Of a stretch of 64,000 nucleotides of DNA, positions 2,805-61,592 are shown one piece after another; the first letter of the stretch is position 1, and every line of letters starts with the position of its first letter. A program made the position numbers and the translations under genes. Under the pieces are notes generated by a model that worked only from the letters and a program-made list of their open reading frames with translations, searched no databases and had not been told where the DNA came from. The DNA is from an uncultured Prevotellaceae bacterium (GTDB taxonomy: Bacteria > Bacteroidota > Bacteroidia > Bacteroidales > Muribaculaceae), in assembly GCA_947306175.1 (NCBI GenBank), contig CAMZFV010000007.1, positions 1-64,000 of the forward strand, written 5' to 3'.

Positions 2805-3344
2805 CTATTTTTCGTTCAGGTCAAGAAGCCCTTGCGGGAGATCCATGACCATCACTTTATTGTCCAAATCAAATTCAACAATCAGGTCGTCGCAGGCAGG
2901 TACCATCAGTTCATCGTCGCCACGTGACACCATGAAGATGGCATTCTCGGTCTGCTCATCAACGTCGGTGATTTCCCCTACCCTGGTACCGTCACTGTCA
3001 TGCAGTTCAAAGCCGATGAAAAAGTCAAGAGGATAACCGTCGGCATCGGCGTCATCGCTCTCTTGACGGTAATCACGCTTGAGGGCATAAATGTCGTGAT
3101 TGACCAGCTTGGCCGCTTCCTGTTCACTGTCGATACCATCAATCGTGAGCAGCACGGTCTCAAGCGACTTGGGGCGGCAAGCATTGACAAAGAAGGGAAC
3201 AAAAATCCCATCAATATCGCTCACCAGGCAGGAAAGTCCCTTCAACACATCAACATCCACATCGACAGTTGCGGAGATTTCCCCGCTAACCCCGTGTGGC
3301 TTATTGTAGTGCCCTATCGCTATGAGTTCCTCACGCGTGATCAT
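2805..3344 (-). CDS. rimM: Ribosome maturation factor RimM
   Basis: IGHYNKPHGVSGEISATVDVD; VGEITDVDEQTENAIFMV...MVPACDDLIVEFDLDNKVMVMDLPQGLLDLN. Confidence 0.9.
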   Translation of the reverse strand: MITREELIAIGHYNKPHGVSGEISATVDVDVDVLKGLSCLVSDIDGIFVPFFVNACRPKSLETVLLTIDGIDSEQEAAKLVNHDIYALKRDYRQESDDADADGYPLDFFIGFELHDSDGTRVGEITDVDEQTENAIFMVSRGDDELMVPACDDLIVEFDLDNKVMVMDLPQGLLDLNEK

Positions 3345-3359
3345 ACTTTTGTATTATTT

Positions 3360-3427
3360 GTAGAGACGCAAAATCTTGCGTCTCATTTCATTCATTTGTT
3401 GAGAGACGCAAGATTTTGCGTCTCTAC
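3360..3427. repeat. Palindromic element with perfect 25-bp terminal inverted repeats (GTAGAGACGCAAAATCTTGCGTCTC)
   Basis: 3360-3384 and 3403-3427 are exact reverse complements; spacer 18 bp. Confidence 0.9.
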
Positions 3428-3431
3428 CGCA

Positions 3432-4037
3432 TTATTTCTTTTTCTTCTTTTTGCCAACTGGTTGGGTCGGTTTGATGATCTGGTACTCGTGCAGGTGATG
3501 TGTCTCCGGGTCAAGGCGGATCTTACCATGACTGTAATAGGCCAGATCCTTAAAAATCTTGGCATCGTCCACATCCTCGTTGTTGATTTGGAAGATGAGT
3601 TTCTTCATGTGGTTGGCCAGCAGCATGACCAATGCGTCACGCTCTTCGCCCTCGGGGTACTCTGCTGCACGTTCAATCATGCGCTCAATGTTCTTACCAT
3701 AGTGGCGCAACTTGATCGGTTCCAACTGATAAGGGATGGGGATCGGCTTGGTGTCCAGATTCTCTTCCTTGATAATGTCATCAAAGGGGAAGTCCACATC
3801 AAGCTGAAAACCGCTCATGATCATCAGGTGATCCCACAATTTATGCTGGTAGTCCGCTTCAGTGCGAAGCTGAGGGAACATATTAGCCATATTTTGAACG
3901 ATCGTGTAGGCACAATGGGTGCGCTCATCGCGGTCTTCAATCGTCAGGCAATGATCCACCATCTGCTGGATGTTGCGGCCATATTCGGGCAACACCAGTT
4001 TCTTTAGAAGTGAGTTATATGTCAACATAATCGGCAA
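3432..4037 (-). CDS. DUF4290 domain-containing protein with poly-Lys C-terminus
   Basis: LTYNSLLKKLVLPEYGRNIQQMVDHCLTIEDRDERTHCAYTIVQNMANMFPQLR; ends KPTQPVGKKKKKK. Confidence 0.8.
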   Translation of the reverse strand: MPIMLTYNSLLKKLVLPEYGRNIQQMVDHCLTIEDRDERTHCAYTIVQNMANMFPQLRTEADYQHKLWDHLMIMSGFQLDVDFPFDDIIKEENLDTKPIPIPYQLEPIKLRHYGKNIERMIERAAEYPEGEERDALVMLLANHMKKLIFQINNEDVDDAKIFKDLAYYSHGKIRLDPETHHLHEYQIIKPTQPVGKKKKKK

Positions 4038-4870: not shown

Positions 4871-5899
4871 TTACAGGGCTGCGATAAGGGCATCGACGTC
4901 ACTGGGGAGTGTTGCCCAGCTGGTGACAAAGCGGCAATTCATCAGGTCTCCCACGGGATACCACTCCTCAAAAACAAATTCTTTTTTCAGGCGCTCAATG
5001 GTTTCCTGGTCCAACAGAACGAATTGCTGGTTTGTCGGGGAATTGCTGTACATCTTATATCCCTTGGATATGAATGCGTCACGCAAACGCATGGCCTGCT
5101 CAACGGCATGGCGGGCAATCTTGAAGTAGAGGTTGTCCTGCATCAAGGCGTCGAACTGGATACCCAACAGACGACCTTTGGCCAACAAGGCGCCATGCTG
5201 CTTGACAATGGTAAAGAAATGCGCTGGTGCCGGAGCATTAGGATTGGGAAAGACAACCGCCTCGCCGCATAGGGCGCCGCACTTAGTACCGCCAAGGTAA
5301 AACACGTCGCACAAGTCGGCCAACTGCGGCAAGGTCACATCCCCACCCTCTGCCATCAGGCCGTAACCCAGCCGGGCTCCATCGATGAACAACGGCAGGT
5401 TGTATTGCCTGCACACATCGCTTATGGCTGTAAGTTCAGCAAGAGTATAGATTGTGCCCATCTCGGTGGCGAAGGTGATATAGACCATGCCGGGGAAAAC
5501 CATGTGGTCATAGGTAGGGTCAGCGTAGAAGTCATGGAGCCACTGTGACAGCTCATGCACATCCATTTTCCCGTCATGGGAAGGCAGCGCCAGTACTTTG
5601 TGGCCGCCAAACTCAATGGCGCCACTCTCGTGGACGTTGATGTGACCCGTATCAACGGCCAACACACCTTGATAAGACAGCAACATGGCATCAATGACGG
5701 TAGCATTGGTCTGTGTGCCTCCCACGAGGAAAAACACATCGGCATCAGGCTTAGCGCATGCTTTGCGGATTCTTTCTCTGGCAGCCGTGCAGTAGTCGTC
5801 AAGACCGTAACCCGTGGCGCGCTCGTCATTGGTCTCTATCAGCCGCCTGAGGATGGCCTCGTGGCAGCCATTGTTGTAATCGCTTTCAAATGAAATCAT
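4871..5899 (-). CDS. Threonine aldolase / beta-eliminating lyase family (PLP)
   Basis: SFESDYNNGCHEAILRRLIETN; GGTQTNATVIDAML; PLFIDGARLGYGL; YLGGTKCGAL. Confidence 0.88.
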   Translation of the reverse strand: MISFESDYNNGCHEAILRRLIETNDERATGYGLDDYCTAARERIRKACAKPDADVFFLVGGTQTNATVIDAMLLSYQGVLAVDTGHINVHESGAIEFGGHKVLALPSHDGKMDVHELSQWLHDFYADPTYDHMVFPGMVYITFATEMGTIYTLAELTAISDVCRQYNLPLFIDGARLGYGLMAEGGDVTLPQLADLCDVFYLGGTKCGALCGEAVVFPNPNAPAPAHFFTIVKQHGALLAKGRLLGIQFDALMQDNLYFKIARHAVEQAMRLRDAFISKGYKMYSNSPTNQQFVLLDQETIERLKKEFVFEEWYPVGDLMNCRFVTSWATLPSDVDALIAAL

Positions 5900-5904
5900 T
5901 GTCT

Positions 5905-5970
5905 GTAAGTTTTAAGTTGTCAGTTTTAAGTTTTAAGTACGGATACTACCGCCTAAAACCTGACTACTGA
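5905..5970. repeat. Heptamer-armed element upstream of the aldolase gene
   Basis: TTTTAAG/TTGTCAG array, loop TACGGATACTACCGC, then CTAAAAC arm. Confidence 0.65.
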
Positions 5971-7750: not shown

Positions 7751-7838
7751 GAGAAAATGAAAACAATTTATTACCGTTGACCTTCGGTCGAAGGTAGGCG
7801 GCGTCTTGGGAATGCCAATGAAAAAAATGATTTTTTCT

Positions 7839-7869
7839 TTGGCATTTCGCTCGACTTGCACTACCTTTG
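7839..7869 (+). promoter_or_regulatory. Bacteroidetes-type promoter TTG-N20-TACCTTTG (distal, prs)
   Basis: TTG 7839-7841; TACCTTTG 7862-7869. Confidence 0.6.
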
Positions 7870-7914
7870 CCTGTGGCTAAGGTAGGCTGCGCCTCAACAA
7901 AATCAAAGTATATT

Positions 7915-7945
7915 TTGCTTTTGTGTTCGACTTGCACTACCTTTG
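7915..7945 (+). promoter_or_regulatory. Bacteroidetes-type promoter TTG-N20-TACCTTTG (proximal, prs)
   Basis: TTG 7915-7917; TACCTTTG 7938-7945; 27 nt to ATG. Confidence 0.7.
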
Positions 7946-7972
7946 CAAAAAACAAATTAATGGAATACTGTT

Positions 7973-9109: not shown

Positions 9110-10009
9110 ATGATGAGAAAACTACTATTTTTCGCATTGACGTTAGGTTTCTCGTTGTGTGCTTCTGCCCAGGTATTGAATGTGACCTCGATTGACAAGG
9201 TCAACCTGCCTGAGCAGGCAGCCGTGGCTGCCATCAGCCCGCAGGGCGACTACCTGCTGCTGACCAGCGCCACCAACCAGGGCCTGACTAAGCTGGACCT
9301 GGCCACGAGCCAGACCCAGGTGTTGAGTACCGCACCCAGTGCCGGTCACAACGTGAAGATCTCGCCCGACGGCCAGACCGTCGTGTATCGAGAGGGCTCG
9401 TTCAACGAGAAGCATCTGCGCATGTCTTCCCTCAAGAGCGTCAACCTCTCTACAGGCCAGAGCCAGGTGCTGGTAAAGCCCACGCGCGACCTGCAGGGTT
9501 ATGACATTAATGGCACCAGCGCAGGTGTTGTGAACAAGGGCAAGTTCAGCAAGAAGGCCATTGGCAATGCCAAGGCCCAGAATCTGCCTGTGCTGTCCAT
9601 TGACAAGGGCCAGCTGATGATCACCGTAAATGGCAAGACCCGCAACCTGTCGCCTAACGGCAGCGGTTTCAGCTACATGTGGCCCTCGCTGTCGCCTGAT
9701 GGCACCAAGGTGCTCTTCTATCAGGCAGCCCATGGCGCATACGTGTGCGACCTTGACGGCAAGAATGTCCGCAAGGTGGGCAAGATGCGCGCCCCGGTAT
9801 GGTATGACGACAATACCGTAGTGGGCATGATCGACCTCGACGACGGCGAGTTCATCTACGCCTCGACCATTGTTGCTGCCACGCTCGACGGCACGACCCA
9901 GACTTTGACGGGCGATGAAACCGTCGCCATGTATCCCCACGCTGCTGCCGGCAAGATTGTATTCAGCACACCCGCTGGCGAGGCATATATTATTAATGTA
10001 ACCGAATGA
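9110..10009 (+). CDS. Secreted TolB/PD40-like beta-propeller protein, cassette copy 1
   Basis: Signal peptide MMRKLLFFALTLGFSLCASAQ; SPDGQTVVYREG, LSPDGTKVLFYQA repeats; mature part identical to 14002-14898. Confidence 0.75.
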   Translation: MMRKLLFFALTLGFSLCASAQVLNVTSIDKVNLPEQAAVAAISPQGDYLLLTSATNQGLTKLDLATSQTQVLSTAPSAGHNVKISPDGQTVVYREGSFNEKHLRMSSLKSVNLSTGQSQVLVKPTRDLQGYDINGTSAGVVNKGKFSKKAIGNAKAQNLPVLSIDKGQLMITVNGKTRNLSPNGSGFSYMWPSLSPDGTKVLFYQAAHGAYVCDLDGKNVRKVGKMRAPVWYDDNTVVGMIDLDDGEFIYASTIVAATLDGTTQTLTGDETVAMYPHAAAGKIVFSTPAGEAYIINVTE

Positions 10010-14001: not shown

Positions 14002-14898
14002 ATGATGAGAAAACTCCTTTTCGCATTGACGTTAGGTTTCTCGTTGTGTGCTTCTGCCCAGGTATTGAATGTGACCTCGATTGACAAGGTCAACCTGCCT
14101 GAGCAGGCAGCCGTGGCTGCCATCAGCCCGCAGGGCGACTACCTGCTGCTGACCAGCGCCACCAACCAGGGCCTGACTAAGCTGGACCTGGCCACGAGCC
14201 AGACCCAGGTGTTGAGTACCGCACCCAGTGCCGGTCACAACGTGAAGATCTCGCCCGACGGCCAGACCGTCGTGTATCGAGAGGGCTCGTTCAACGAGAA
14301 GCATCTGCGCATGTCTTCCCTCAAGAGCGTCAACCTCTCTACAGGCCAGAGCCAGGTGCTGGTAAAGCCCACGCGCGACCTGCAGGGTTATGACATTAAT
14401 GGCACCAGCGCAGGTGTTGTGAACAAGGGCAAGTTCAGCAAGAAGGCCATTGGCAATGCCAAGGCCCAGAATCTGCCTGTGCTGTCCATTGACAAGGGCC
14501 AGCTGATGATCACCGTAAATGGCAAGACCCGCAACCTGTCGCCTAACGGCAGCGGTTTCAGCTACATGTGGCCCTCGCTGTCGCCTGATGGCACCAAGGT
14601 GCTCTTCTATCAGGCAGCCCATGGCGCATACGTGTGCGACCTTGACGGCAAGAATGTCCGCAAGGTGGGCAAGATGCGCGCCCCGGTATGGTATGACGAC
14701 AATACCGTAGTGGGCATGATCGACCTCGACGACGGCGAGTTCATCTACGCCTCGACCATTGTTGCTGCCACGCTCGACGGCACGACCCAGACTTTGACGG
14801 GCGATGAAACCGTCGCCATGTATCCCCACGCTGCTGCCGGCAAGATTGTATTCAGCACACCCGCTGGCGAGGCATATATTATTAATGTAACCGAATGA
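14002..14898 (+). CDS. Secreted TolB/PD40-like beta-propeller protein, cassette copy 2; start moved from ORF-track 13825
   Basis: MMRKLLFALTLGFSLCASAQ signal peptide starts at 14002; remainder identical to copy 1. Confidence 0.75.
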   Translation: MMRKLLFALTLGFSLCASAQVLNVTSIDKVNLPEQAAVAAISPQGDYLLLTSATNQGLTKLDLATSQTQVLSTAPSAGHNVKISPDGQTVVYREGSFNEKHLRMSSLKSVNLSTGQSQVLVKPTRDLQGYDINGTSAGVVNKGKFSKKAIGNAKAQNLPVLSIDKGQLMITVNGKTRNLSPNGSGFSYMWPSLSPDGTKVLFYQAAHGAYVCDLDGKNVRKVGKMRAPVWYDDNTVVGMIDLDDGEFIYASTIVAATLDGTTQTLTGDETVAMYPHAAAGKIVFSTPAGEAYIINVTE

Positions 14899-21300: not shown

Positions 21301-21312
21301 CACAACCTATAT

Positions 21313-21366
21313 AAACAACAAATTACGCCAATTATACAAATATGTAATTGGCGTAATTTATAGTTT
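21313..21366. repeat. AAACAACAAATTACGCCAATTA...TAATTGGCGTAATTTATAGTTT palindrome; may act as terminator between lon and luxS
   Basis: Long inverted repeat in convergent intergenic. Confidence 0.7.
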
Positions 21367-21861: not shown

Positions 21862-21864
21862 ATT

Positions 21865-21903
21865 GAGTTGTAAGTTTTTAGTCCTTAGTCCTTAGTTGAT
21901 AGC
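21865..21903. repeat. Heptamer array upstream of luxS
   Basis: TTTTTAG TCCTTAG TCCTTAG TTGATAG. Confidence 0.8.
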
Positions 21904-21909
21904 AGCTGG

Positions 21910-22587
21910 TTATAGTTCAGTTATGATGTCTTTTACAATGTTGAACGATTCGCGGGGGGCGTCATCCCAAAAGTCAAGGTATTGGCGTGTATTGTCGTGG
22001 CTGGCGCCTGGAGAATCACTGATGACACGCAGGGCCAAGAAGGGCACTTTGCACAAATGACACACCTGGGCGATAGCTCCCGACTCCATATCCACGGCCA
22101 AAGCATCGGGGAAATTGCCCTTGATGCGATCCACGTCCTCTTTCTTGTCGATAAACTGGTCGCCAGAGCAGATAAGGCCCTTGTGGATGTCATCACGGTC
22201 TGGAATAAGATCAAGCAAACGCTGGGCGCCCTCAAAGTATAGGGGCAAGCCCTGAACGCGTCCCAATTCGCTCTCTGGACCGCACCACACGTCATGATAG
22301 GCGACGCGAGCACCGGCCACCACGTCCATCACATTGACTGACGGGTCTGCGCCTCCGGCCACACCGCTGTTTATGACATAGTTTGGGGCAAAATGGTTGA
22401 CCAGCATCAATGCGCCCATAGCGGCATTCACCTTGCCGATGCCACATTGCATCACCATCACGTCATGCTTCCCCACCGTGCCGCGGTGGAACTCAAAGCC
22501 GCTCATGCAGCTCTCCTCACTGTTGTGCAGCAACGGCAGGAGCAAGTCCAGCTCTTTGCGCATCGCCACAATGATTCCAATTTTCAT
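21910..22587 (-). CDS. mtnN: 5'-methylthioadenosine/S-adenosylhomocysteine nucleosidase
   Basis: GIIVAMRKELDLLLP; VINSGVAGGADP; AVDMESGAIAQVCHL. Confidence 0.92.
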   Translation of the reverse strand: MKIGIIVAMRKELDLLLPLLHNSEESCMSGFEFHRGTVGKHDVMVMQCGIGKVNAAMGALMLVNHFAPNYVINSGVAGGADPSVNVMDVVAGARVAYHDVWCGPESELGRVQGLPLYFEGAQRLLDLIPDRDDIHKGLICSGDQFIDKKEDVDRIKGNFPDALAVDMESGAIAQVCHLCKVPFLALRVISDSPGASHDNTRQYLDFWDDAPRESFNIVKDIITEL

Positions 22588-22589
22588 TT

Positions 22590-22631
22590 ATTATAGTTGT
22601 TAGTTTTTAGTCCTTAGTCCTTAGTTGTTAG
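22590..22631. repeat. Heptamer array upstream of mtnN
   Basis: TTATAG TTGTTAG TTTTTAG TCCTTAG TCCTTAG TTGTTAG. Confidence 0.8.
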
Positions 22632-23828: not shown

Positions 23829-25871
23829 ATGAAACGACATCTTCCCATATCATCGTCTCCAGTTTTGTGGCTGTTGTGGAACCTGCTGGTGGTCTATCTT
23901 GCCTACACGCTGTGCCGCGTTGTGTTCCTCGCTCTCAACTGGCCGCTCTATGCGGGCACCCTGACGCTGGGACATGGTTTGGAACTGTTTGGCGCCGGAT
24001 TGCTGTTTGACACGCCCGCTATCCTCTATACCAATGCCATCATTCTACTGATGTTCCTCTTGCCGTTGCACTGGAAGGAGCGGCCTGGCTTCTATCGGGT
24101 GGCAAGATGGATATACACGATTGTGAACAGCATCGCCGTGTATATGAATCTGATGGACTGCGTCTATTTCCCGTTTACGGGCAAGCGCACCACAGCATCG
24201 GTGTTTGCCGAGTTCAGTAACGAGGAAACAAGCGAAATGTTGAAAATCTTCGGCGGTCAGTTCCTGAGTCATTGGTATCTGGTACTGCTGGCAGCCCTGG
24301 TGACCTGGGCGTTCTGGAAATTGTTCAGGCCCTGTAGAGACACAAAATCTTGCGTCTCTGTCAACGCCCAAACGGGAGACGCAAAATTTTGCGTCTCTAC
24401 AGTAAGATATTACATCGTTCAAATTGTTGCCTTGCTGGTGGCTGTCCCGTTGTGCATTGGTGCGATACGTGGCGGATTTACCAAGGCGACCCGCCCCATC
24501 ACCATCAGCAATGCCAATCAATATGTCAACCGGCCGGCCGAGACGGGTATCGTGCTGAACACGCCATTTTCCATCTTCCGCACTTTGAAGAAAACGCCTT
24601 ATGTTGTACCTGACTACATGAGCGATGAGGAAGCCGCAGCCCTCTATACCCCACTCCACACGCCTACTGGCCAAACTGCATTCACACCCCGTAACGTGGT
24701 GGTGATAATTCTGGAGAGCTACAGCAAGCAGCACATCGGTTTCTATAACAAGACGCTGAGAGATGGCACTTACAAGGGCTTCACGCCTTTCCTGGATTCA
24801 CTTATCGAGGCGAGCGCTATGACCTATAGGTACTCTTACGCCAACGGCCGCAAGAGCATCGAGGGCATGCCCTCGGTACTGTCATCGCTGCCAAATTTTG
24901 TCGAGCCGCTGTTCCTCACGCCCGCCTCGCTGAACAGCATGTCGGGACTGGCCCGTGAACTGGGCGAGAACAAGGGGTACACCACTGCCTTCTTCCATGG
25001 AGCGCAGAACGGTTCGATGGGTTTCCAGGCCTTTGCACGCGCTACAGGGTTCCAGCGATATTATGGCCGTGACGAGTACAATGCCGACCCCAATTTCAAC
25101 GGGAATGAGGATTTTGACGGCACATGGGCCATTTGGGATGAGGAGTTTTTCCAGTTCTTCGCCGAGCAGTTGGGCAAGATGCAGGAGCCGTTCATGACCG
25201 CCTTGTTCAGCGCATCATCCCACGATCCCTTTGTTGTGCCCGAGAAGTACCAAGGTCGTTTCCCCCATGGTGAACGCCCCTTGCAGCAGTGCATCGCCTA
25301 TACCGACTATGCCTTGAAGCGCTTCTTTGAAACTGCTAGCCAGCAACCGTGGTTCAACAACACATTGTTTGTCATCACTGCCGATCACGTGAGCCAGCAG
25401 ATCGACCCCTTCTACTGCACTACATTGGGCCACTATTGTGTACCCATCATCCTCTATGCCCCAGGCGACCCGTCACTGCGCGGCTATGACGAAGAGCAGG
25501 TGGTACAACAGATTGATATCATGCCGACGGTGCTTGGCTATCTGAACTATGATCAGCCATATATCGCCTTTGGGCGCGACATGCTCCACCCCTCCGCCAA
25601 TGAGGGCTTTGCCCTTCACTGGCTGCCCGAGTCCAGCAGCTATGAGTATGTTTGGGGAGATTACGCCCTGCACTTCGACGGCAAGCAGGTCACCGCTGCC
25701 TACAAATACCGCACCGACTCCACCTTTAGCCATAACGTCCTCCCGATCATGCCTTCTGACACCCTCGACAGCATGCAGCGCCACATGAAATCCTTCATCC
25801 AGCAATACATGCAACGCATGACCACCGACAACCTCATCATCAAGCCACAACAGCTAAAAGGAAGACAATAA
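23829..25871 (+). CDS. LTA synthase family / sulfatase-domain membrane protein
   Basis: N-terminal hydrophobic helices; VVVIILESYSKQHIGFYN, GRKSIEGMPSVLSSLPN, FVITADHVSQQ. Confidence 0.85.
   Translation: MKRHLPISSSPVLWLLWNLLVVYLAYTLCRVVFLALNWPLYAGTLTLGHGLELFGAGLLFDTPAILYTNAIILLMFLLPLHWKERPGFYRVARWIYTIVNSIAVYMNLMDCVYFPFTGKRTTASVFAEFSNEETSEMLKIFGGQFLSHWYLVLLAALVTWAFWKLFRPCRDTKSCVSVNAQTGDAKFCVSTVRYYIVQIVALLVAVPLCIGAIRGGFTKATRPITISNANQYVNRPAETGIVLNTPFSIFRTLKKTPYVVPDYMSDEEAAALYTPLHTPTGQTAFTPRNVVVIILESYSKQHIGFYNKTLRDGTYKGFTPFLDSLIEASAMTYRYSYANGRKSIEGMPSVLSSLPNFVEPLFLTPASLNSMSGLARELGENKGYTTAFFHGAQNGSMGFQAFARATGFQRYYGRDEYNADPNFNGNEDFDGTWAIWDEEFFQFFAEQLGKMQEPFMTALFSASSHDPFVVPEKYQGRFPHGERPLQQCIAYTDYALKRFFETASQQPWFNNTLFVITADHVSQQIDPFYCTTLGHYCVPIILYAPGDPSLRGYDEEQVVQQIDIMPTVLGYLNYDQPYIAFGRDMLHPSANEGFALHWLPESSSYEYVWGDYALHFDGKQVTAAYKYRTDSTFSHNVLPIMPSDTLDSMQRHMKSFIQQYMQRMTTDNLIIKPQQLKGRQ
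24334..24400. repeat. Palindromic element (25-bp TIR family) inside a coding sequence
   Basis: GTAGAGACACAAAATCTTGCGTCTC (24334-24358) ... GAGACGCAAAATTTTGCGTCTCTAC (24376-24400); same family as 3360-3427; read as CRDTKSCVSVNAQTGDAKFCVS. Confidence 0.88.
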
Positions 25872-30430: not shown

Positions 30431-31102
30431 ATGATTCAAGTCAAAATTGATCCACGAATACTGGATGCGTGCCCTGCATGCCGCATCGGACTTATCAGCG
30501 CGGATGTGGTCAACGACCCCACCTGCGATGAACTGTGGGCCGAGATTGAGGCGGCTGCCAGCGAAATCAATGAGCGCTACGAATTGCTGGAAATCAACCA
30601 GCGACCTGCCATTGCAGGCACTCGACATTTGTATAAAACGTTGGGCAAAGATCCCAGCCGCTACCGCGTGTCGAGCGAAGCCCTGTGCCGCCGCATCATC
30701 CGAGGCTTGGGCATCTACCGCTTGACTACACTCATCGACGTGGTCAATCTGGTGTCCATCAAGAGCGGATATGCCATCAGCGGTCTGGATGGTGACCGCA
30801 TCGTGGGCGACACCTTGACCATGAGCGTGGGCACCGCCGAAGATGTGTATAACGGCATCGGGCGTGGCGTGCTCAACATCGAAGGGATGCCTGTCTATCG
30901 GGATGCGATGGGTCCCATTGCCACCCCGACGAGTGACGAGGAACGCACCAAGTTCACCGAGCAGACCGTCAAGGCGCAGATCAACATCAATGCCTTCGCT
31001 CCCGAGATGCCGCTTGAAGAGGCCGTGGACTGGATGGCAGCTCTGCTCAAGAAATATGCCCACGCGACCAATGTGGAAACTGGAATCATAGACTTTAGCT
31101 AA
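30431..31102 (+). CDS. B3/4 (tRNA-editing-like) domain protein
   Basis: GTRHLYKTLGKDPSRYRVSSEALCRRIIRGLGIYRLTTLIDVVNLVSI. Confidence 0.8.
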   Translation: MIQVKIDPRILDACPACRIGLISADVVNDPTCDELWAEIEAAASEINERYELLEINQRPAIAGTRHLYKTLGKDPSRYRVSSEALCRRIIRGLGIYRLTTLIDVVNLVSIKSGYAISGLDGDRIVGDTLTMSVGTAEDVYNGIGRGVLNIEGMPVYRDAMGPIATPTSDEERTKFTEQTVKAQININAFAPEMPLEEAVDWMAALLKKYAHATNVETGIIDFS

Positions 31103-31104
31103 GT

Positions 31105-31187
31105 AAACTACTAATTACACGAATTTTTACGAATTAATTGTTTTGTGTAACCAATTTAATTAGTTTAATTAGCGAAATTAGTAGTTT
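31105..31187. repeat. AAACTACTAATTACACGAATT...TTAGCGAAATTAGTAGTTT dispersed palindrome
   Basis: Inverted arms at both ends. Confidence 0.7.
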
Positions 31188-32536: not shown

Positions 32537-33559
32537 ATGGAGATTACTGCACAACAACTTGCAGCGATGGTTAATGGCACGGTCGATGGCGATGCCTCTA
32601 CTGTGATTAACAACTATGCAAAAATCGAGGAAGCCACGCCAGGTTGCCTGACGTTCCTTGCTAATCCAAAATACACGCATTTCGTTTATACCACCCAGGC
32701 ATCGGCTATCCTGGTGAGAAAGGATTTTGTGGCTGAACAAGAGGTTAAGGCTACACTCATACGCGTGGACGACCCTTACAAGACGCTGGCCGACCTGCTG
32801 AACTTCGTCAACAGTCAGCGCCCCGAGAAACATGGTGTAGAGCAGCCCATTCACGTGGGACAGGGCACTACCCTGCCCGATGACGTTTATGTCGGCGCAT
32901 TTGCTTACATCGGAGAGGGTGTCACCATTGGCAAGAACGTGAAGATTTATCCGCAGGTCTATGTGGGTGACGGTGTGACCCTGGGTGACTATGTGATCCT
33001 CTATCCCGGCGTGAAGATTTATCATGGCTGTCGCATCGGCAACCGCTGCATTGTGCAGGGCGGTGCTATCATCGGTGGCGACGGCTTCGGCTTCGCTCCT
33101 AAGGAGGACGGCACATACGAGAAAATCTCTCAGGTGGGTATCGTCATCCTGGAGGACGATGTGGAAATCGGTGCCAACACGACTATCGACCGTGCCACCA
33201 TGGGTGCAACCGTGGTCAAGAGAGGCGCTAAACTTGATAACCTCATCCAGATTGCCCACAACGTCGAAGTCGGCGAAAGCACCGTCATGGCTGCCCAAGT
33301 GGGCGTTGCCGGCTCGACAAAGATCGGCAAATACAATATGGTGGGTGGTCAAGTGGGCTTTGCCGGACATATCACCGTTGGTGACAAGAACGGTATCGGT
33401 GCTCAGACCGGCGTTGACAACAGCATCGGCAGCAACGGCAAGTGGCTTGGTGCCCCCGTGCAGCCCGCGATGGAATTTGCCCGCCAGGTGGTTTACCTGA
33501 AGCGCTTGGGCGAGATGTACAGCGACATTAAAGACCTGAAAAAGAAAATCAACAATTAG
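32537..33559 (+). CDS. lpxD: UDP-3-O-acylglucosamine N-acyltransferase
   Basis: [17 protein letters not shown]; hexapeptide repeats; [25 protein letters not shown]. Confidence 0.95.
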
Positions 33560-33560
33560 A

Positions 33561-33670
33561 GTTTTTAGTTTTAAGTTTTTAGTTTTAAGTATAATTTGTT
33601 TCGCCTATAGCGGAATTGTCAATTCAAGTGATCATACTTAAAACTTACAACTTAAAACTTACAACTTAAA
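33561..33670. repeat. Heptamer-armed inverted element upstream of lpxC/fabZ
   Basis: Left TTTTTAG/TTTTAAG array 33561-33590; right CTTAAAA/CTTACAA array 33637-33670. Confidence 0.8.
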
Positions 33671-44281: not shown

Positions 44282-44301
44282 GCAAGATTTTGTGTCTCTA
44301 C
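44282..44301. repeat. Solo degenerate half of the GAGACGCAAAATCTTGCGTCTC palindrome family
   Basis: GCAAGATTTTGTGTCTCTAC. Confidence 0.55.
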
Positions 44302-44318
44302 AAAACAAATAAGAAGTT

Positions 44319-48647: not shown

Positions 48648-49228
48648 TAGATTTTGCTGTGGTAGTAGCGCACGTGGTAGAAGAACGGCATCACGTAGGA
48701 AATCTCGCCCGTGAAGCCATATTGAGACTTGATGACCAGGTTCACCTCGCATTCGACGCCAAGGAACAGTAGCGGGAACTGCAGGCCGTAGCCCCACTGT
48801 GAAGAGGACGGCAGCGTGTAATCACCATAGTTGAAGCAGCACGGCGTCTGGTCCATCGATGTTTCGTTGCCGCTATAAATTGTCCAAGTCCCGTTGGCAT
48901 ACCACGTCGAAAGATTGTAACGGCTGTAGCGGAAGTAGATGGGCTCGCCCTGCTTTACCTTGTCGTTGGCACGGTCACCTGCATCCAGCACCTGCATATA
49001 AACGTTACCATCCACATCCACGCGATAGAACGGCGCGTCGGGACCCACCTCAAAGACGGAGTCAGCGGGGACATTCATCACCACACGGTGGTTGGCCAAA
49101 AAGGCGTTCACAGAGTTTCGCTCATCGTTGAGGCGATCGGCATAACTCTGGTCGTTATCACAAGCCGCCAGCATCAATACCATTGCCAGCAACCCCATGA
49201 AAAGGCTCTTATTCATTATTTCCTTCAT
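48647..49228 (-). CDS. DUF4827-like lipoprotein
   Basis: Lipobox LMLAAC; DNDQSYADRLNDERNSVNAFLANHRVV. Confidence 0.65.
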   Translation of the reverse strand: MKEIMNKSLFMGLLAMVLMLAACDNDQSYADRLNDERNSVNAFLANHRVVMNVPADSVFEVGPDAPFYRVDVDGNVYMQVLDAGDRANDKVKQGEPIYFRYSRYNLSTWYANGTWTIYSGNETSMDQTPCCFNYGDYTLPSSSQWGYGLQFPLLFLGVECEVNLVIKSQYGFTGEISYVMPFFYHVRYYHSKI

Positions 49229-49231
49229 ATT

Positions 49232-49270
49232 TCTTTTAGTTGTTAGTTGTCAGTCCTTAGTCCTTAGTTG
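49232..49270. repeat. Heptamer array upstream of DUF4827-like gene (overlaps 3' end of next gene)
   Basis: CTTTTAG TTGTTAG TTGTCAG TCCTTAG TCCTTAG TTG. Confidence 0.8.
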
Positions 49271-50288
49271 CAATGCCTAATTCGTCGAGTACCTGATGAA
49301 TCAGCGCTACAGCTTCCTCCATCGTGCACGTCAGTTCCCCGCCTGCCGCATTCTGGTGGCCTCCGCCGTGGAAGTAGCGGGTGCAGATGTCGCTTACCGA
49401 GAAATCACCCTGAGAACGGCATGACACCTTAATCCGGTCAACATCCTCACGCAGGAAGACGCTCCAATACACCTCGGGTATGGCCAACGGCTTGTTCACC
49501 AGCGTTTCGGTGTCACCACGGCAATACTTGAAGCGGGTGAGCTCCTCCTGGTCCAGCGTGATCAATGCGCAGCCATGTTCGGGGAAAATCTGCATCTTCT
49601 CGTTGATGGCATAGCCCTGCAGGCGCAGGCTGTTCTCGCTAAAGGTGTTCAGCGCCTTGTTGTAAAGCCCGATGCGGTCAAAACGACGGCGCATGAGCGC
49701 TGCCAACACCTCATAGAATTCCGGGTTGTCACAGCTGTAGGCGAAGCCACCTGTGTCGGTTAGCATTCCCACATACAGGCAACTTGCCGCGTGGCGGTCC
49801 ACAAGCCTCAACAGCCCCATCTGCATCAGTACTCTGAATACCAACTCGCACGTCGATGAAGCCTCAGGAACCGAGATAGCAACGTCAAAAACGCTCTCAT
49901 CGGGATCCAAGTGATGGTCGATAAGGACTAACTTAGTGGCTAGAGGCGCGATGATTTCACCCAGGCGGTCAATGCGATGCAGTGAGTTATAGTCCAGGCA
50001 GAATATCAGTTGAGCATCTGTCAATTCGCGACGGGCACGTGCCTCATGCTTGGTCAGCACCACCAGCTCACGCACCCCAGGGATAAACTCCAGCGATTTG
50101 GGCGCCATGTCAGGCGTAACGACTACGGCCTGCTTGCCCAGCCTCCTGAGCACATGACACAAGGCCAACGACGAGCCCAGTGCGTCACCGTCGGGAGACT
50201 TGTGACAGGTGATGGCAATGCGTTGCACCCCGTTAATCAGGACACGCAACCGCTCAATCGTATTTTCGTCTATTATTGCGCTGATCAT
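49257..50288 (-). CDS. DHH family phosphoesterase (NrnA-like oligoribonuclease/pAp phosphatase)
   Basis: ITCHKSPDGDALGSSLAL; LVLIDHHLDPDESVFD; YFHGGGHQNAAGGEL. Confidence 0.9.
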   Translation of the reverse strand: MISAIIDENTIERLRVLINGVQRIAITCHKSPDGDALGSSLALCHVLRRLGKQAVVVTPDMAPKSLEFIPGVRELVVLTKHEARARRELTDAQLIFCLDYNSLHRIDRLGEIIAPLATKLVLIDHHLDPDESVFDVAISVPEASSTCELVFRVLMQMGLLRLVDRHAASCLYVGMLTDTGGFAYSCDNPEFYEVLAALMRRRFDRIGLYNKALNTFSENSLRLQGYAINEKMQIFPEHGCALITLDQEELTRFKYCRGDTETLVNKPLAIPEVYWSVFLREDVDRIKVSCRSQGDFSVSDICTRYFHGGGHQNAAGGELTCTMEEAVALIHQVLDELGIATKD

Positions 50289-50291
50289 GCT

Positions 50292-50333
50292 CGTTTTAGT
50301 CCTCAGTCCTTAGTCCTTAGTTTTCAGTTTTTC
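50292..50333. repeat. Heptamer array upstream of DHH gene
   Basis: GTTTTAG TCCTCAG TCCTTAG TCCTTAG TTTTCAG. Confidence 0.8.
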
Positions 50334-51372: not shown

Positions 51373-51410
51373 ATTCAGTTTTCAGTTTTTAGTCCTTAGT
51401 CCTTAGTTGG
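51372..51410. repeat. Heptamer array upstream of EEP gene
   Basis: TATTCAG TTTTCAG TTTTTAG TCCTTAG TCCTTAG TTGG. Confidence 0.8.
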
Positions 51411-51444
51411 CGGATGCCACTCTAAACTGCGGGCGCAGCTCACA

Positions 51445-59033: not shown

Positions 59034-61430
59034 ATGGAAGAGAAATGGGTAAAAAAATTCAGGGTTTTCTTGGCATCGTCCAATGAATTGAGCAATGACC
59101 GAAAAGATTTCGAGAGATTGATCTCCCGATTAAATAATCATTATGAAAGTCGAGGCATCCATTTTATTTTAGATATTTGGGAATACCTTGACCCAACCTT
59201 AATGAACAAACGCAAGCAGGATGAATACAACGGGTACATAAGGAATTGTGACGTTTTTGTGGCGCTCTTCTATCTCAAGGCTGGTGGATTTACACTTGAG
59301 GAGTTTACTGTAGCGGAACAGGAAAACAAGAAGCGCAAACTGCCCTTATTTATCTATTTCAAGGAAGGCGTGAATGGCTCAGATGAAAAAGAGTCATTGG
59401 AATTGACGAAGTTCAAGAATCATATCGAACTCCAATTAAAGCACTTCTGGGGAAGGTATGCCACCACTCCTGAGCTGCACTTGGATTTTGCCTTATGGTT
59501 AGACAATTATCTGTATGGCTCAAGGGGTAATACCAAGATTGAAAATGGCAGTGTGATGTTGGATGACGTCATCATCACTAAGATGTTGCAACTGCCCTTT
59601 GCATCAAACAACGAGGACTTCAAGCGAATGTATCAGGCAGCTCAAGAATTCCCTGCGAAAATCGAGAAATTGCGAAAACGAACGGAGAAATATCCAGATG
59701 ATCAGGAAATTCGTGACGAACTACAAGAGGCTTTAAATGAATACAATGACTTGATAAAGAAGTTTGAGGGGTATCAACAGAATTTGCTGGATACTGCAAA
59801 ACTCATCGCTGACAAAAGCCAGGAGCAAACCAGTGAAAAACTCCAAAGAGCGATTGAAGCTTTTAAGGCTGGTGATATGGCTGGAGCCAATGCCCTACTT
59901 CGTGAAATCGCCATTGACGCCGATAATCACATGGCGCAATTTGACAAATATAAAACACTCATTCTTCAGGATATTGATGCATTTCAACTGCAAGCCAAGA
60001 CTGAAATGACGGACTTGGAAACGCCCATCGAAGAGCGTATCGCCCGTGTTGCAGAAATCTATGCCAAGGCCGACGATTGGGCAAGCCGTAGCGCCTACGA
60101 CAAAGAGAAATACGCAATCCTTCTTTATGATTACGTTAAATTTCTTTTTGACTATGCCTTCTACAATGAAGCAGAGAAGATTTATCTTCGTCAAATTACC
60201 ATTTCCGAAGAAATCTACGGCAAAGAACACCCCTCTACCGCCACCTCCTACAACAACATCGGCTTGGTTTACAGTGAACAGGGCGACTATGACAAGGCGT
60301 TGGAGTACTACTTCAAGGCGTTAGATATCGACAAGAAAGTCTTGGGCAAAAAACACCCCTCTACCGCATCATCATACAACAATATCGGTTTGGTTTATGA
60401 TGAACAGGGCGACTATGACAAGGCATTGGAGTACTATTTTAAGGCGCTAGAAATCTGGGAGAATATCTTGGGTACAGAACACCCCTACACCGCCACGTCC
60501 TACAACAACATCGGTGCGATTTACTATAGCAAAGGCGACTATGACAAGGCGTTGGAGTACTACTTCAAGGCGTTGGATATCCGTGAGAAAGTCTTGGGCA
60601 AAGAGCACCCTGACACAGCCCAATCATACAACAACATCGGCGCAATTTACAATCAGAAGAGCGACTATGACAAGGCGTTGGAGTACTATTCTATGGCATT
60701 GGATATCGTCAGAAAATTTCTTGGTGAGATGCACCCATATACAGCAGCACCCTACAGCAACATCGGTAGGGTTTACGATAGCCAAGGTGACTATGACAAG
60801 GCATTGGAGTACTACTTCATGGCATTAGCTATCAATGAGAAGGTCTTGGGTGCTGATCACCCCTCTACCGCCACTGACTACAACAGCATCGCCACGGTTT
60901 GCTATAGCAAAGGCGACTATGACAAGGCATTAGAATACCATTTTAAAGCGTTAGCTATTCGTGAGGAAGTCTTGGGCACAGAACACCCCGACACAGCGCA
61001 ATCTTACAACAACATCGGCGCAATTTACTGGGAACAGGGCGACTATGACAAAGCATTGGAGTACTATTTAAAGGTGTTGGAAGTATTTGAGAAGGTATTG
61101 GGCACAGAACATCCATCTACCGCTACTGACTACAACAACATCGGCGCGGTTTACGAACGCAAGGGCGACTATGACAAGGCATTAAAGTACCATTTTAAAG
61201 CGTTAGCCATCCGTGAAGAAGTCTTGGGCACATTACACCCAGACACAGCTCAATCCTACAACAACATCGGCACGGTTTACTATAGCAAAGGTGATTATGA
61301 CAAGGCATTAGAGTATTTTAAGAAGGCGCTAGTCATATTTGAGAAAGTCTTGGGTGCTGAGCACCCCACTACACAAACTGTTCTGAGTAATATCGATTTT
61401 TTGAAAATCATAAAGGAATCGGAGGAGTAA
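59034..61430 (+). CDS. TIR/DUF4062-like N-terminal domain plus kinesin-light-chain-type TPR array
   Basis: FRVFLASSNELSNDRKDFERLISRLNN...GYIRNCDVFVALFYLKAGGFTLEEFTVAEQENKKRKLPLFIYFKE; nine 42-aa units HPxTAxSYNNIGxVYxxxGDYDKALEYYxKALxIxEKVLG. Confidence 0.8.
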   Translation: MEEKWVKKFRVFLASSNELSNDRKDFERLISRLNNHYESRGIHFILDIWEYLDPTLMNKRKQDEYNGYIRNCDVFVALFYLKAGGFTLEEFTVAEQENKKRKLPLFIYFKEGVNGSDEKESLELTKFKNHIELQLKHFWGRYATTPELHLDFALWLDNYLYGSRGNTKIENGSVMLDDVIITKMLQLPFASNNEDFKRMYQAAQEFPAKIEKLRKRTEKYPDDQEIRDELQEALNEYNDLIKKFEGYQQNLLDTAKLIADKSQEQTSEKLQRAIEAFKAGDMAGANALLREIAIDADNHMAQFDKYKTLILQDIDAFQLQAKTEMTDLETPIEERIARVAEIYAKADDWASRSAYDKEKYAILLYDYVKFLFDYAFYNEAEKIYLRQITISEEIYGKEHPSTATSYNNIGLVYSEQGDYDKALEYYFKALDIDKKVLGKKHPSTASSYNNIGLVYDEQGDYDKALEYYFKALEIWENILGTEHPYTATSYNNIGAIYYSKGDYDKALEYYFKALDIREKVLGKEHPDTAQSYNNIGAIYNQKSDYDKALEYYSMALDIVRKFLGEMHPYTAAPYSNIGRVYDSQGDYDKALEYYFMALAINEKVLGADHPSTATDYNSIATVCYSKGDYDKALEYHFKALAIREEVLGTEHPDTAQSYNNIGAIYWEQGDYDKALEYYLKVLEVFEKVLGTEHPSTATDYNNIGAVYERKGDYDKALKYHFKALAIREEVLGTLHPDTAQSYNNIGTVYYSKGDYDKALEYFKKALVIFEKVLGAEHPTTQTVLSNIDFLKIIKESEE
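60219..61352 (+). repeat. Nine tandem 126-bp coding repeats (TPR)
   Basis: GGC-AAA-GAA-CAC phase restarts every 126 bp; no indels between units. Confidence 0.9.
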
Positions 61431-61546: not shown

Positions 61547-61592
61547 ATACGCGAATTACACTGATTAGCATAATTCGCGTAATTTGTAGTTT
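61547..61592. repeat. Dispersed palindrome AATACGCGAATTACA...TAATTCGCGTAATTTGTAGTTT
   Basis: Same family as 2065, 21313 and 31105. Confidence 0.65.

Follow-up and report, generated by a model that had tools for sequence, protein, structure and literature searches.

The window analysed here, a 64,000-nucleotide stretch of contig CAMZFV010000007.1 from an uncultured Prevotellaceae bacterium (source genome, G000), contains an intact gene for an LtaS-like membrane protein with a C-terminal sulfatase domain. A domain search placed PF00884 at residues 288–573 (E 4e-34), and the nearest solved structures by sequence and fold belong to LtaS-type enzymes and to related proteins of the alkaline-phosphatase superfamily; PbgA/YejM, a full-length membrane protein, is also among the structural matches. 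Both arms of a palindrome lie in frame inside this ORF without interrupting it, as the first-pass annotation had reported. The left 25-nt arm (24334–24358) reads GTAGAGACACAAAATCTTGCGTCTC, with one mismatch to the repeat family described below, and the right arm (24376–24400), read on the minus strand, is GTAGAGACGCAAAATTTTGCGTCTC. That annotation had been left with the puzzle of how a 67-bp element could preserve the frame; when the conserved T preceding each GTAG is counted, the stretch at 24333–24401 (TGTAGAGACACAAAATCTTGCGTCTC-17 nt-GAGACGCAAAATTTTGCGTCTCTACA) comprises 69 nt, or exactly 23 codons, and encodes residues 169–191 (CRDTKSCVSVNAQTGDAKFCVST). The palindrome core has four matches in the window at ≤3 mismatches, versus none in 100 shuffles. 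The 69-nt strand folds at −20.6 kcal/mol using DNA parameters (z = −7.6), and an Rfam search of the insert region returned no match.

Table 1. Positions of the LtaS-like gene, its insert and other repeats in the window
Feature	Position	Strand	Remarks
LtaS-like membrane protein gene, C-terminal sulfatase domain	23829..25871	+	intact, 680 aa
REP1 unit, left	24333..24358	+	T + GTAG + 9-bp hairpin; one change, GACACA for GACGCA
Spacer of head-to-head REP1 dimer in LtaS-like gene	24359..24375		17 nt
REP1 unit, right, inverted	24376..24401	-	outermost GTAG tag at 24397-24400
Second head-to-head REP1 dimer	3359..3428		between minus-strand ORFs 2805-3344 and 3432-4037
Truncated REP1 unit	44282..44302	-	21 nt; GACACA change as in left LtaS unit
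AGTTTTTAGTCCTTAGTTG-type stretches	2012-2064, 5897-5935, 21862-21914, 22591-22629, 33556-33666, 49220-49272, 50294-50332, 51373-51411	both	intergenic, AT-rich, tandem
Other dispersed intergenic repeats	45-112, 7833-7946, 293-378, 2061-2141, 21309-21366, 31101-31187, 61565-61592		some inverted
ORF with direct repeats	59034-61430		798 aa; repeats at 60099-61406, spacing exactly 126 nt (42 codons)
Duplicated stretch	9113-9412 and 14002-14301		300 nt, 98% identical; neighbouring similar gene sets ~4.9 kb apart

The window also has repeats of other kinds. The AGTTTTTAGTCCTTAGTTG-type stretches lie between many genes, and the other dispersed intergenic repeats include copies containing ACGAATTACACGAATTATACTAATTT and TGCACTACCTTTGC.

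In an AlphaFold model of the LtaS-like protein (38 sequences, mean pLDDT 81), insert residues 172–188 have pLDDT values below 50 and lie between helices 149–165 and 191–213. The insert is thus modelled as a disordered loop between the last two transmembrane helices, ahead of the sulfatase domain, in agreement with the tolerant loop that had been proposed from the sequence. Arginine and lysine residues border the loop, which by the positive-inside rule and the topology of LtaS is probably cytoplasmic; the cysteine residues of the insert would then be unlikely to form disulphides, and they are missing in several sister species. The insert probably has little functional effect, and its peptide is probably neutral.

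The repeat itself, which we call REP1, is a 25-nt unit consisting of GTAG and a 9-bp hairpin (GTAGAGACGCAAAATCTTGCGTCTC); it folds as TGTA followed by a 9-bp stem and a 4-nt loop (z = −6.3), the loop being AATC or AATT. The source genome holds 76 and 74 matches on its two strands at ≤3 mismatches, and a reversed control gave none. A census of fetched stretches around these matches resolved them into 77 distinct sites, comprising 61 single units and 16 dimers. Ten of the 16 dimers are head-to-head, with GTAG on the outside and spacers of 12–38 nt (seven of them 17–19 nt) whose sequences are unrelated between most dimers. About 85 units carry GTAG at one end, an outcome favoured by the presence of GTAG in the search pattern; core-only matches at the same loci revealed few untagged units. 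A T precedes the tag in 76 of 85 tagged units, and some copies are of the ‘double foot’ form, with GTAG and CTAC as their two ends. The initial description of the LtaS insert as a single 67-bp element bounded by a family of 25-bp terminal inverted repeats does not hold, since each arm is a complete GTAG-tagged hairpin and most sites carry just one. REP1 fits the description of a GTAG-tagged REP in its sequence features (a terminal GTAG, a hairpin within the 20–40 bp length and 6–13 bp stem range of such repeats, high copy number mostly between genes, and dimers). A full-text literature search with the REP1 sequence found no relevant paper.

REP1 is mostly intergenic: about 8 of the 77 sites are inside supported genes, in each case in frame. 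Besides the LtaS-like gene, the hosts are genes for chorismate synthase AroC (PF01264), an AlkD-like DNA alkylation repair protein (PF08713), an FAD-linked oxidase with Fe-S domains (PF02913), UvrD/PcrA (PF13361), a GHL10 glycosidase (PF02638) and a DNA/RNA endonuclease (PF01223), as well as an ORF of unknown family. The element is read in two frames, as RDAKSCVS or ETQNLAS. Such a low genic count in a mostly coding bacterial genome points to strong selection against genic copies. Long antisense ORFs crossing REP1 sites (L025, L148, L152 and L172) were set aside as unsupported.

The LtaS linker was compared across 30 genomes of the genus, with a REP call counted at a score of 16 or more; empty AlkD and GHL10 loops score up to about 10, well below this cut, and scores of 9–11 also arise in empty AlkD linkers. 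Five species (G000, G048, G023, G024 and G055) carry REP1 in this linker, with scores of 18–24 of 26, and in four of the five it is partly decayed; the G040 linker retains a fainter trace (score 13). The hairpin has decayed in G023, G024, G040 and G055. G023, G024 and G040 have 23-aa linkers in which the dimer palindrome is largely gone, and REP1 nonetheless scores 22, 22 and 13 there. Three of the 30 linkers have another, inverted palindrome (GGCCACGCCAAGGCGAGGCCCTAC and variants), which corresponds to a second GTAG family, REP2 (GTAGGGCCTCGCCTTGGCGTGGCC), on the opposite strand. Most of the remaining orthologues have an unrelated 13-aa linker. The gap of about 22 aa anticipated in orthologues is only partly borne out: the insert is absent from most of them, but a 13-aa linker takes its place. 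The net gain at the site is about 12 codons rather than 23, and REP1 insertion thus replaced part of the linker.

The GACACA change common to the LtaS-like gene and G048 was considered as proof of one insertion; that argument is weakened by the same change in the partial copy at 44282. Six relatives (L038, L039, L065, L129, L132 and L053) have glycine/asparagine-rich linkers, several of them built of 9-nt GGAxxxAAC repeats, which match REP1 and REP2 poorly and may represent another repeat type. The G055 linker (L047, L126) contains half a REP1 and, after it, a AGTTGTCAG-type stretch similar to the AGTTTTTAG/AGTCCTTAG repeats found between genes in the window.

Orthologue comparisons covered six of the eight genes with in-frame REP1 (the LtaS-like gene, AroC, AlkD, the oxidase, UvrD and GHL10). 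The AlkD insert provides the cleanest case, being present in G000 only, with an uninterrupted loop in all relatives aligned. REP1 was found in 4 of 27 genomes at the AroC site (REP2 in 8), in 8 of 29 at the oxidase site (REP2 in 2), in 2 of 26 in UvrD and in 2 of 28 in GHL10. The AlkD-like insert (L147) also contains a palindrome, GCAGCGACGGAGTCGCTGC, and a stretch resembling a repeat of contig C96 (see below) between its two REP1 units, and is thus a composite of REP families.

Both families are dispersed well beyond these genes. REP1 is present in 40 of the 91 genus members searched (0 to 139 matches per genome), and a sample of 247 genomes from the order included 25 that have it; the hosts of the dispersed hairpin are rumen bacteria. 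REP2 was found in 29 of 34 genomes, with up to 119 matches, and only 2 in G000. Their copy numbers vary independently, with 2 REP1 and 76 REP2 matches in G069, and 74 and 0, respectively, in G048.

The LtaS, AroC and oxidase loops carry REP1 in some species and REP2 in others. The LtaS gene tree alone resolves too poorly for origins to be counted, although the scatter of REP-bearing sequences on it forces at least two changes; a five-gene protein tree, with many weak branches, gives minimum numbers of state changes of 8 for AroC and 7 for the oxidase. In GHL10, REP1 occupies the same place in G000 and G058, whereas a plain KGKKG-type sequence is retained by 25 other relatives and by G057, which groups as sister to G058 with 99% support, and the 3′ flank of G058 follows G057 rather than G000. 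This pattern favours two separate insertions, and may alternatively have arisen by a very short DNA exchange. REP2 in AroC starts exactly at the GTAGGG of conserved QVG codons. We make no claim for a pre-existing GTAG at the GHL10 site, where only one empty allele has that tetranucleotide in place. In the oxidase, four lineages share an identical 26-nt REP while differing at ~29–40% of their four-fold sites, and the remainder of the linker could not be aligned; of 2151 windows of the gene, 10 are as conserved as the REP. The identity may reflect recent or repeated insertion, or constraint. It is possible, and on balance somewhat doubtful, that REPs are an active source of protein indels in the genus, with the LtaS-like, AroC and oxidase loops hit recurrently and independently by different families, perhaps guided by a pre-existing GTAG-like tetranucleotide.

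TnpA-REP/RAYT-type enzymes recognise GTAG and a hairpin in single-stranded DNA (PMC8266576), and Y1_Tnp genes are present in these genomes, four of them in the source genome. No intact REP1 was found within ~1.5 kb of these four genes or of the best 29 loci in relatives; one poor match adjoins L265. The filters used likewise detected no GTAG-tagged hairpin of any kind in the Y1_Tnp flanks of the source genome and the relatives examined, so that no REP1-flanked transposase gene (a REPtron) was observed. G057 has 34 REP1 matches and no Y1_Tnp match. Together, these observations point to no particular mobilising enzyme. The Y1 genes present resemble subclass 1.2 (several of them, by a YIxNQKEHH-type motif), an NHVH type of ~270 aa, or a type of 324–386 aa; TnpA-REP proteins of subclass 1.2 are generally without hairpins (Quentin et al. 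2018, PMC6006769). On contig C96 of G000 (L033, L179), three copies of a palindrome, GCCGTGGCTCCTGCCACGGC, come after a 386-aa ORF that resembles a Y1 transposase and has an additional C-terminal domain; the palindrome probably belongs to a separate, third REP family.

The LtaS insert is, very probably, a head-to-head dimer of a dispersed, non-autonomous GTAG-tagged REP, whose genic copies survive only in frame and in dispensable loops. REP1 would insert at many places, moved, as its anatomy suggests, by a TnpA-REP/RAYT-type HuH enzyme; genic copies would persist only in loops that the protein can spare, the others being selected out. In the LtaS-like gene the element would have taken the place of most of the linker that joins the last two transmembrane helices, and the DNA hairpin would later decay without loss of the reading frame. 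In related species, one family or the other would have repeatedly hit the loops of LtaS, AroC and the oxidase. Some observations sit less easily with this account: no clean-ended simple insertion was seen, host bases having been lost at the sites we looked at, and the identity of the oxidase REP in diverged lineages is not predicted by plain neutral decay.

That identity, set within a linker otherwise beyond alignment, is an argument that genic copies are more than tolerated, and that selection retains them for the sake of a DNA or RNA hairpin or of the peptide. We consider this unlikely, given that the LtaS hairpin has decayed in four species, that REP1 is absent from most species in every gene, and that the equally conserved windows elsewhere in the oxidase gene reduce the excess to a modest one. 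A MITE whose terminal inverted repeats are recognised by a DDE transposase would also suit the pair of inverted 25-nt arms and the short spacer separating them; such an element is improbable, given that 61 sites have one arm only, complete with hairpin and tag, and that the spacers of most dimers are unrelated. The target duplication that the first-pass annotation had offered as one option was seen at none of the sites compared.

In the reverse history, which the annotation had named as fatal to its proposal, the peptide would be ancestral and its palindromic DNA a coincidence; the three species with a 23-aa linker and little dimer palindrome might speak for it. Those linkers still match REP1 DNA, most relatives have an unrelated linker, and REP1 DNA occurs at 77 sites, in two reading frames in unrelated genes and also outside genes; an ancestral origin is accordingly very hard to credit, and the annotation's proposal stands in this respect. 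Equally far-fetched is a misjoining of REP copies within genes of metagenome-assembled genomes. These are draft genomes and repeats do break assemblies, but sequencing reads are longer than the 25 nt of the repeat, and the same insert, with open frames, is found in up to eight separately assembled genomes.

In-frame REPs have earlier been listed mostly genome by genome, without the state of the gene before and after insertion. In the dozens of related species compared here, loops of several housekeeping genes can be seen without an insert, with one, and with a decayed one, for two unrelated REP families. Such a series makes measurable the rate of protein change by a mobile hairpin, its target preference, and the rate at which the hairpin decays while the frame is kept.

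The nearest named kind of element is the intragenic GTAG REP, known since 2013 in other phyla. The survey of GTAG REPs by Di Nocera et al. (2013, PMC3733652) described single units and head-to-head dimers, mostly intergenic and some in frame, with intragenic copies in UvrD/REP helicase and other repair genes and many inserts encoding 20–30 aa. REP1 resembles these in its terminal GTAG, short hairpin, single and head-to-head dimeric forms and in-frame copies, UvrD included. That survey reported GTAG repeats from Proteobacteria, Cyanobacteria, Chloroflexi and the PVC group, and only CGTC repeats from Bacteroidetes (PMC3733652); REP1 differs in being a GTAG family in Bacteroidales, with invaded loops traced across ~30 species. 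The REPs of TnpA-REP subclass 2.4 (RAYT group 4) occur in Bacteroidetes and Cyanobacteria, have ‘double foot’ GTAG/CTAC ends (Quentin et al. 2018, PMC6006769) and insert in frame inside tnpA-REP genes themselves (PMC6006769). Several REP1 sites share the ‘double foot’ form, but no subclass 2.4 gene was found beside REP1, and its inserts are in housekeeping genes. As in E. coli REP/BIME and TnpA-REP (PMC8266576), REP1 combines GTAG with a hairpin and forms inverted pairs; unlike E. coli REP, it has a perfect 9-bp stem without a bulge, and no flanking transposase gene was found. The original comparison with Rickettsia palindromic elements was apt as to outcome, a mobile palindromic repeat in frame in protein-coding genes, and holds as an analogy in mode of insertion alone: the phylum is different, RPE-4 and RPE-6 are classed with CGTC repeats (PMC3733652), and the tag and hairpin of REP1 fit GTAG REPs. 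What is new relative to these systems is a GTAG family in Bacteroidales, outside the list of the 2013 survey, the record across many species of the same loops in empty, filled and decayed states, and the sharing of those loops by two REP families.
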